Of a stretch of DNA of 23,624 nt, positions 21,026-23,624 are shown piece after piece. The DNA comes from a virus. Location of the stretch: positions 1 to 23,624 of the IMG/VR virus record IMGVR_UViG_3300027917_000178; one strand, written 5' to 3'. The notes beneath the pieces were generated by a model, which did not search any database, was not told the origin of the DNA, and saw only the letters and a list, made by a program, of their open reading frames with translations. How positions within the stretch are numbered: the first letter of the stretch is position 1; each line of letters starts with the position of its first letter. A program made the translations under genes and the position numbers.

Positions 21026-23624
21026 GTGGCTGAGCCAAACGACGACTTCTACAGTTTTGCCGATGAGTTCGGATACGCTGACGACGAGACCCAGGCTGCC
21101 CAGCCTGTAGAATCGCAGCCCATCGAGGCAGAACCGTCCCCGTTCGAGACGGCCGCACCCGAGGAAGAGTACAGCTTCGCCTCGGAGTTCGGCTATGCCG
21201 AGCCAGAAGCCCCGGCGGCCCCCGAAACCCCCATCGAAGATGACCCCACCTGGCAGGACTACGGCCGAATGGTCATGTCCGGCGGCGCGTCTGTCGCCGG
21301 TGGTATCGGCTGGCTGATCGAGAAGCTGGGTGAGAAGACTGGCGTCGAGGGCATAACGGAAGCCGGTACCGCGGTGAAGGAGCGTTCGATGCGCTCCGCC
21401 AACCAGTGGAACGAGGAGCGCCTGAGCGCGATCGGGCTGGACCAGGAAGGCCTGTCTCCGCAAGCACGCCAGGCAATGAACACAGAGCTTCTGGGCGAAG
21501 GCGAGTGGGGCGACAAGTGGGACAAGGTCAAGCTGATGACCGCCAGTTCCATGCTCGGCACGATGGCCGGTATGGGTGCAGGACGCATCTTCACGGGCGC
21601 TCTCCAGGGCGTGGGAGCTGGCCAGGGCGTGGCGGCCACTGTCGGCTACGGTCTCGGTGAAGCGGCTGTAGCGGCCCCCACGGCGGGCGCATACACGGAA
21701 GATGAAGTCCGGCAGATGACCCACGAGCAGCTGCTCGAGTCTTTCGAGTACCAGGCCGCTCTGGAAGCCCTGGACATGCCGGAGGAGGAAGCCCGGGATA
21801 AGGCCAGGGACATCGTAGCCAAGGCCGCAGGCGGCGACGCAGCCGCGATCAGTATGGTCACGACCTTCCTGCTCAGCGCCCCCTTCGGTAAGGTGATGGA
21901 TGACGTCATCGGCGGCGCAGCGGGCGGGTACATGCGAAGCGCCGGCAGAGGCGCCGGCACTGAAGCGACCCAGGAATTTCTGCAGAGCGGCGCGGAGGCG
22001 ATGGCCTCGAACATCGGTATGCGTCGTGCTGACCCCGATCGGCCGATCACAGAGGGCGCCCTCGAAGAGGCCGTCGGCGGTGCTGCAGCTGGTGGCCTGA
22101 TGGGTGGAACCGTCGGCCTGGCAGGTGGCGGCGCGCAGGTACAGGAAGAGGGCCCGAGCGTTACAGACGCGATCGAGGCCGCCCAGGCACGAGCTGCCGA
22201 CGACGCTGCAGCCGCTGGCGGCGACCTCCTGGATCAGGTGGTTGCCGGCAATGAGGCAGCAGAGAGGATCACGAACCCGTTTGAGAGGGCCACCCGGCCG
22301 GTGGAACAGGTGGCAGAGTCCATCTTCGAGGCGGCCGCACAGAGGGAGATTACGGATGCAGAATACGCCGAGCTGGCCGCTACACCCGCCGCTGAAAGAA
22401 CACCGGTTCGGGAGGTAGCGCGTGAAAAGCTCATTCCAGAAACCGATATGGCCGCAGCCGAAACGGCTACCGATCAAGCCAGGGCGGAAGAACAAGCCGC
22501 CGCAGCGAAGCGCTACGAGAGACAGCAGCGTGCTGAAGCAGCACGTCCTGCGGAGGAAGCTCGGGAAAAACAGCTGGAAGCTGAGAGACGCGAAGCTGAG
22601 TACCAAAAGGCAATACAGGAGGGCGAAGCTGCGGAGCGCGCTGGCGAAGCACAGCCTGCTAACCCAGTCATGGCGCAGGCTTTTGCCAAGGCAGAGCAGG
22701 AGAAGGTAGCCAAGGCCCAGAAGCAGGCCAAGAAGTCCTTCGCCGAGGTCCGCGAAGAGGCTCGCCAGAAGAAGGCGAAGGAGCGGGCCGCGGCCGACAT
22801 CACGCGCGCGAAAGAGACGCTCGCGTTGCCGAGGCAACCTGATGTAGTCGTCAGCGCCACCGGCGAGGCCTTGACCAAGGACCAGATCAACCTGGAGAAG
22901 AAGCGGCTGGAAGTGGATGCAGCCGCCGGTGAGACGCCGCTGCGACCATCAGAGTTAAAGATGGAGCGGCGCCTGGGCTCCCTGAGGATTGCGATAGAGA
23001 CGCCCGAAGGGAACACCAGGACCGGCAAGAGGCCGGATGGCACCACCTGGTCCAGCACCATGAAGGGAGTGGACTACGGCTTTGTCCGTGGCACGACTGG
23101 TGCTGAGGGAGACCAGGTGGATGCCTTTGTAAACACCAGCAAGCGCCCAGGCACGCCGGCTGACAAGGTCTTCGTGATCGACCAGCTGAATCGAGAGGGC
23201 GGCTTCGACGAGCACAAGGTCATGGTCGGCTTCCGCAACGAGGCGGAGGCAAAGCGCGCGTACAGCCAGCAGTACGAGGAAGGCTGGACGGTCGGCCCTG
23301 TTACGGAGATGACCGGCGAGCAATTCAAGCGGTGGGTGAAGGAAGGCAAGAAGGACCAGCCGGTATCCAAAGAGATACCGCGGATGGCTGCTGCCTCCAC
23401 CCGGGCCAAGGCTGCCGAGCAGCAGCAGCAGCAGCAGCAGCAGCAGCCCCAGGCGCCCAAGAGTGCGGCCCAGGTCTTCGAGGAAGAGGGCCAGTTTGTC
23501 GTCAAGCACGAGGGCAAGGTCAAGTTTAAGAGCCCGAACAAACGAGCCGCTGACGCCTTCGCCAAGGGCCTGGGTGGCCGGCAGATCAAGGCAGCGCTGC
23601 CCAGCGGCATGCGGATCGAGATGG
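21026..23624 (+). CDS. Large polyvalent-type protein with InPase domain (partial)
   Basis: Starts at GTG 21026 behind CAGGAG and stays open for 866 codons to the window edge, so the C-terminus is missing. Residues 9-18 and 49-58 are two copies of YSFA-[DS]-EFGYA. Residues about 90-390 hold Gly/Ala-rich hydrophobic segments and helices (for example EATQEFLQSGAEA at 313-325). Residues about 440-620 are a charged coiled coil. Residues about 650-775 match the inorganic-pyrophosphatase-like domain of polyvalent proteins: YGF (684-686), GDQVDAF with D696 and D699, VFVIDQ (715-720) and FDEHK (727-731). A Gln9 tract follows at 799-807. Polyvalent proteins are thought to be delivered with DNA into the new host. 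Other domains probably lie beyond the window. Confidence 0.8.
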   Translation, partial: MAEPNDDFYSFADEFGYADDETQAAQPVESQPIEAEPSPFETAAPEEEYSFASEFGYAEPEAPAAPETPIEDDPTWQDYGRMVMSGGASVAGGIGWLIEKLGEKTGVEGITEAGTAVKERSMRSANQWNEERLSAIGLDQEGLSPQARQAMNTELLGEGEWGDKWDKVKLMTASSMLGTMAGMGAGRIFTGALQGVGAGQGVAATVGYGLGEAAVAAPTAGAYTEDEVRQMTHEQLLESFEYQAALEALDMPEEEARDKARDIVAKAAGGDAAAISMVTTFLLSAPFGKVMDDVIGGAAGGYMRSAGRGAGTEATQEFLQSGAEAMASNIGMRRADPDRPITEGALEEAVGGAAAGGLMGGTVGLAGGGAQVQEEGPSVTDAIEAAQARAADDAAAAGGDLLDQVVAGNEAAERITNPFERATRPVEQVAESIFEAAAQREITDAEYAELAATPAAERTPVREVAREKLIPETDMAAAETATDQARAEEQAAAAKRYERQQRAEAARPAEEAREKQLEAERREAEYQKAIQEGEAAERAGEAQPANPVMAQAFAKAEQEKVAKAQKQAKKSFAEVREEARQKKAKERAAADITRAKETLALPRQPDVVVSATGEALTKDQINLEKKRLEVDAAAGETPLRPSELKMERRLGSLRIAIETPEGNTRTGKRPDGTTWSSTMKGVDYGFVRGTTGAEGDQVDAFVNTSKRPGTPADKVFVIDQLNREGGFDEHKVMVGFRNEAEAKRAYSQQYEEGWTVGPVTEMTGEQFKRWVKEGKKDQPVSKEIPRMAAASTRAKAAEQQQQQQQQQPQAPKSAAQVFEEEGQFVVKHEGKVKFKSPNKRAADAFAKGLGGRQIKAALPSGMRIEM
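23420..23446 (+). repeat. (CAG)9 microsatellite / Gln9 tract
   Basis: Nine perfect CAG codons encode residues 799-807 of the polyvalent-type protein, in a linker after the InPase-like domain. All codons are identical, which points to slippage rather than selection on glutamine alone. The length may vary between relatives. Confidence 0.9.

Follow-up and report, generated by a model that had tools for sequence, protein, structure and literature searches.

An InPase-like domain in a giant phage protein encoded at the end of a putative ejection cassette

Known carriers of the InPase domain

The InPase domain of polyvalent proteins was defined by Iyer et al. (2017; PMC5512222), who predicted that it is packaged into the virion and proposed that it is injected together with the DNA. 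A hallmark of the group is the missing beta-hairpin of the cellular enzymes, and the ideas put forward for the substrate are nucleotides of the infection response or, alternatively, the clearance of pyrophosphate (PPi) (Iyer et al. 2017). Our literature search found no published assay of an InPase domain.

Searching the PDB with our family profile we found a match to the portal protein gp19 of phage Pa193 (9b41, E=5.9e-60, residues 630-763), and thus an InPase homologue belongs to a virion protein. According to the main text describing this phage (PMC11042391), the portal was modelled at residues 94-528, residues 529-765 are without density and residues 1-93 were undetected by LC-MS; the word pyrophosphatase is absent from that main text. 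The InPase domain falls within the density-free 529-765 stretch. Homologous domains are present on other Pbunavirus portal and minor head proteins. A second kind of carrier is represented by VPAG_00062 of Vibrio phage douglas 12A4 and by the giant protein of Achromobacter phage CF418P1. These proteins are 2684-3026 aa long, and the InPase domain is found about 840-1090 residues in, followed by LPD39 and by LPD3 plus LPD38, respectively.

The protein described here is closest in kind to the InPase proteins of Iyer et al. (2017), being a giant, presumably multidomain phage protein encoded near structural genes with a domain recognized by its profile and shortened in spacing when compared with the cellular enzymes. 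In contrast to the Pbunavirus proteins, in which the domain is a C-terminal appendage of the portal, it is a separate giant protein, and its clear homology to the douglas 12A4 and CF418P1 giants is confined to the InPase part. The kind of domain is already known (Iyer et al. 2017); new are a small variation of the active site and a newly described context.

The InPase domain and its active site

The analysed stretch of DNA (the window) is an entire virus record of 23,624 bases. Its last gene is an open frame on the plus strand starting with GTG at position 21026 and running off the contig, so that it can be read only as far as 23624 (21026..23624; 866 aa visible). GTG 21026 is a plausible start, with an AGGAG a few bases upstream of it and the stop codon of the preceding gene ending at 21022. 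In its N-terminal and InPase parts the encoded giant polyvalent ejection-type protein is homologous to the giant proteins of two environmental contigs, L091 and L176.

The original prediction had placed an InPase-like domain at 22973-23353 (residues 650-775). With the Pfam profile PF18823 we find the domain a few codons away, at 22967-23341 on the plus strand of the window DNA (133.7 bits, E=6e-41, stop-free). On the protein the match covers residues 648-772 and profile positions 14-135 of 135, and its score of 129.4 bits (E=1e-37) lies far above the curated cut-off of 26.8 bits. All four motifs that had been named are present, namely YGF at residue 684, GDQVDAF at 695, VFVIDQ at 715 and FDEHK at 727. 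Relatives of the domain were detected by tblastn in 456 of 50,697 phage records, so that the match is no product of chance, and PF18823 matched none of the 14 control genomes. The profile of the cellular pyrophosphatases (PF00719) stayed below its threshold on the giant protein (13.6 bits, cut-off 23.5). We therefore regard the presence of an InPase domain in the last gene as confirmed.

The family assignment is also strongly supported by structure prediction. An AlphaFold2 model of the domain based on 75 sequences reached a pLDDT of 85.5 and a pTM of 0.80. Each of the best 50 Foldseek matches in the PDB was a family I inorganic pyrophosphatase (E 2.9e-4 and probability 1.00 for the top one), but the TM-scores were modest, about 0.4. 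When viral models were searched, the InPase domains of portal proteins, type I restriction proteins and polyvalent proteins ranked best. The hhalign comparison with the E. coli pyrophosphatase, whose sequence was checked against the PDB, yielded an alignment for no more than the region of Tyr55 to Asp70, which has the YGY/DGDxVD motif. Here Tyr684, Glu694, Asp696 and Asp699 of the window pair with Tyr55, Asp65, Asp67 and Asp70, respectively. The FDEHK block is presumably the equivalent of Asp102 and Lys104. The spacing between Glu20 and Tyr55 of the E. coli enzyme is 35 residues, whereas only 26 residues separate Glu658 and Tyr684, i.e., the window is about 10 residues shorter. Judged by this spacing the domain would be devoid of the beta-hairpin of the cellular family I enzymes, in line with the InPase group.

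We collected 170 family members with a profile built in this analysis and aligned them. Eleven columns are invariant (E20, R27, W37, Y45, G46, D60, Q77, F84, D85, E86 and K88), and the window retains every one of these residues (Glu658, Arg665, Trp675, Tyr684, Gly685, Asp699, Gln720, Phe727, Asp728, Glu729 and Lys731). The acidic metal-binding residues Glu658, Asp696, Asp699, Asp728 and Glu729 are present. The first Asp of the metal-binding DGD motif, however, which is Asp in 168 of the 170 members and Glu in the other two (L048 and L091), is replaced by Glu694 in the window; L176 also has Glu at this position. A phylogenetic tree unites L048, L091 and L176 in a supported clade (99/93). As the domain of the window stands on a long branch without a supported position, the tree does not establish a single origin for the Glu of the window and of these contigs. 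A further difference from the domains of Iyer et al. (2017) is that profile positions 1-13, which hold the AGNYxKG entry motif in other members, are unmatched in the window domain. No literature on an Asp65Glu exchange in the E. coli pyrophosphatase was found.

Given the Glu in place of Asp and the long branch, the activity of the window domain could be altered or lost. Together with the missing AGNY motif and the portal appendage of the Pbunavirus proteins, these observations could mean that the domain is a binding module with little or no catalysis, which serves the structure or the assembly of the particle. We consider this unlikely, since every other invariant residue has been retained in spite of fast divergence and since the invariance of the acidic residues and of the lysine throughout the family argues for catalysis.

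Architecture of the giant protein and its cassette

By its gene content the window appears to belong to an SU10-like podovirus, with the giant gene at the end of a podovirus-type cassette. A putative Ig-domain protein (PF05345, 1008-2444, 49.7 bits) is encoded before the terminase. There follow, all on the same plus strand as the giant gene, the terminase large subunit (3347..4804, phrog_2, 53% identical to vir555 and 48% to Vibrio phage 1.185.O), an SU10-type portal (PF23899, 5445..7673, 99.6 bits), the major head protein (9363..10334, phrog_1357, 69-71% identical in the environmental contigs L178, L179 and L180, whose loci extend this far), an SU10-type adaptor (PF24175, 11689..12396, 58.1 bits), a large tail protein (12409..14556, 54-57% identical to L178, L179 and L180), which by its position is probably the nozzle, and a tail-fibre-like protein (14556..17438, phrog_3279 and phrog_13980). 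A profile search found no InPase domain in the portal of the window.

Four smaller cassette genes lie between the fibre-like gene and the giant gene, likewise on the plus strand. The first (17446..18840, 464 aa) is 38-49% identical in L020, L048, L091 and L178 and 34% in L176. In L048 its homologue (2720-4462) contains an insertion starting CFVAGTLVQMDG which is intein- or Hint-like in appearance. The second protein (18842..19708, 288 aa) has a Lys-rich N-terminus followed by one strong hydrophobic segment (hydropathy 2.15 at residues 40-58); the equivalent gene of L091 has a similar N-terminus, and by these features we regard the protein as a candidate membrane-active ejection protein. The third (19686..20321) has up to 211 aa, as its start may be later, and has homologues in L020/L180, L048/L181, L091/L179, L176, L178 and L188. 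In L176 and L178 a homologue of the fourth (20321..21022, 233 aa) immediately precedes the gene of the giant protein. The ejection cassette of L091 has an inserted gene for a small protein (3443-3874), which by eye only looks GNAT-like.

The relatives with the same cassette were found by searches with the family alignment and the cassette alignment; when the viral_contigs collection was scanned with single proteins (the giant, the 233-aa or the 464-aa protein), the yield was no more than two InPase matches or none at all. The order of the cassette is the same in five environmental contigs, L176, L178, L179, L180 and L181, the last three lying on the same contigs as L091, L020 and L048, respectively, and in all five the giant protein contains an InPase domain. 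L176 and L178 were found via the N-terminal segment and the cassette, the other three also via InPase. The recurrence of the domain in L176 and L178 is thus no artefact of the search, as both were found without use of InPase. The domain is also present in the giants of the more distant L183, L188 and L189. None was found in L185 and L187, and in L186, a weaker cassette match, a 2435-aa protein without InPase match stands at the place of the giant. Weaker-match relatives such as L186 indicate that InPase is dispensable to the cassette. As models for the giant protein we also considered the terminase neighbours Vibrio phage 1.185.O, Cobetia phage Carin1 and vir555 and rejected them, as they are without InPase; their polyvalent domains are LPD22, PBECR5, or none clear.

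Within the visible part of the giant protein InPase is the single known domain, preceded by an N-terminal segment; the C-terminal part lies off the contig, which distinguishes the window protein from those of Iyer et al. (2017). The N-terminal segment is rich in Gly and Ala (residues 76-400, 21251..22225, plus strand), has PHROG matches at residues 171-375 and is 43% identical to L091 and 49% to L176. Residues 161-380 alone match phrog_2206, the N4-like virion RNA polymerase (E=1.9e-15), phrog_10089, a DarB-like antirestriction protein (E=2.5e-11), and phrog_938 (6e-5). The likeness to the N4-like polymerase extends over an N-terminal segment of about 200 residues; profile searches matched no polymerase domain in the visible giant protein. 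The virion RNA polymerase and DarB-like families comprise proteins whose carriage in the particle is known or presumed (Iyer et al. 2017). A tblastn search of the phage records with the N-terminal 635 residues gave no match, and a sequence search of the PDB with the N-terminal part and three proteins encoded upstream gave nothing credible.

A charged, Ala-rich linker follows (residues 401-640, 22226..22945, plus strand), which by its composition is probably helical; residues 376-640 matched no family in a profile search. Behind the InPase domain (residues 648-772, 22967..23341) an uninterrupted (CAG)9 run at 23420..23446 of the plus strand encodes nine Gln in a further linker. The giants of the relatives add LPD39, ART, GGDEF-like and HExxxH domains, and no defence model was matched when the giants were analysed with PADLOC. 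The L091 and L176 giants share a domain that has no name, is about 260 residues long and contains an HDYFGH motif; it was also matched in cyanobacterial and mycobacterial phages (MW202675, MW202722).

Downstream of InPase the giants of L048, L091, L176, L178 and L180 contain an HE(G/V/I)VxH motif followed by an acidic AEEyiA-like motif. A short way behind this HExxxH domain the proteins of L048, L176 and L180 finish with C-terminal tails that resemble one another. Pfam searches matched no family for it. We call the domain metallopeptidase-like because of its motif and because HExxxH zincin-like variants have been described in polyvalent proteins (Iyer et al. 2017). By analogy we predict such a domain also for that part of the window gene which lies beyond the contig end.

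The extreme N-terminus of the giant protein contains a duplicated motif, which was detected as a 12-residue self-match. Its copies are YSFADEFGYADD at residues 9-20 (21050..21085) and YSFASEFGYAEP at residues 49-60 (21170..21205), both on the plus strand, and the score of 50 was reached in none of 300 shuffles. The relatives carry their own, different repeats, in L176 for instance GNMFLDEFGVQD/GNLFLDEFGAEE, and also L178, L180, L048, L091 and L189 have them. The short motif is lineage-specific and is present in two or three copies per giant. In non-redundant sets a repeat at p<=0.02 was found in 20 of 56 InPase giants and in 7 of 63 N-termini of further long proteins encoded at these loci. An apparently overwhelming enrichment of the repeats in InPase giants (69/154 against 0/154 inner segments) became moderate after removal of redundancy and with the N-terminal control. 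A role in loading or docking is speculation. We regard as unlikely the extended idea that the motif is a tandem N-terminal loading tag which evolves together with a docking site for the giants in the phage head or portal, and that a C-terminal HExxxH protease would free an InPase effector directed against a nucleotide defence signal.

Probable delivery and possible substrate

The original prediction had located the domain in an ejection cassette, and this placement is supported by the gene order kept in the relatives and by the common N-terminal segment. Cassette order, N-terminal segment and the portal homologue taken together make it likely that the giant protein is carried in the virion and delivered, the homology to the Pa193 portal being the strongest argument. 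The giant could instead be made in the infected cell without being carried in the particle, its gene standing after the structural genes by chance. This we hold to be very improbable in view of the conserved order of the cassette, of the segment in common with the N4-like virion RNA polymerase and DarB-like proteins, which are known or thought to travel in particles, and of the InPase domains on portal or minor head proteins elsewhere.

The domain, its predicted fold, the gene order and the homologous relatives are directly supported. For packaging, delivery, processing, activity and substrate we consider the following course to be rather probable. With its N-terminal segment the giant polyvalent protein would be loaded into the head, and it would leave the particle together with the DNA; in this way a folded, metal-dependent InPase phosphohydrolase domain would be carried into the cell. 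The predicted HExxxH metallopeptidase-like domain may cut the giant into pieces, in the head or in the cell. In the first minutes of infection the freed InPase would then hydrolyse a phosphoanhydride bond, somewhat more probably in a nucleotide-type target, such as a modified nucleotide or a signal used in defence, than in bulk pyrophosphate.

The other candidate for the substrate is bulk pyrophosphate. The domain would then be a true pyrophosphatase which is delivered to clear PPi and thereby favours early transcription, replication or other nucleotidyl transfer of the phage, as proposed by Iyer et al. (2017). The equivalents of Tyr55, Asp67 and Asp70, i.e., residues of PPi chemistry, are kept in the window. 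In addition, the L180 giant (13943-17821) has a GGDEF-like domain at residues 631-734, shortly before InPase, and the standard GGDEF reaction releases PPi. This motif is, however, degenerate (TGDEY) and the match is barely above the cut-off (25.0 bits, cut-off 23.8). Cells, moreover, already hold their own soluble pyrophosphatase. For this reason, and because several of the invariant residues lie outside the block aligned by hhalign with the E. coli enzyme, we lean towards a nucleotide-type substrate and regard a true pyrophosphatase as improbable, albeit the most credible of the alternatives.

Hundreds of phage genomes encode InPase domains, among them those of much-studied Pseudomonas phages, in which the portal carries the domain. 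If these domains are delivered hydrolases, many phages import an enzyme that splits phosphoanhydride bonds together with their DNA, and the imported InPase could clear a nucleotide alarm signal or pyrophosphate. In the environmental clade InPase has a stable place in the ejection cassette, beside a likely self-processing protease.
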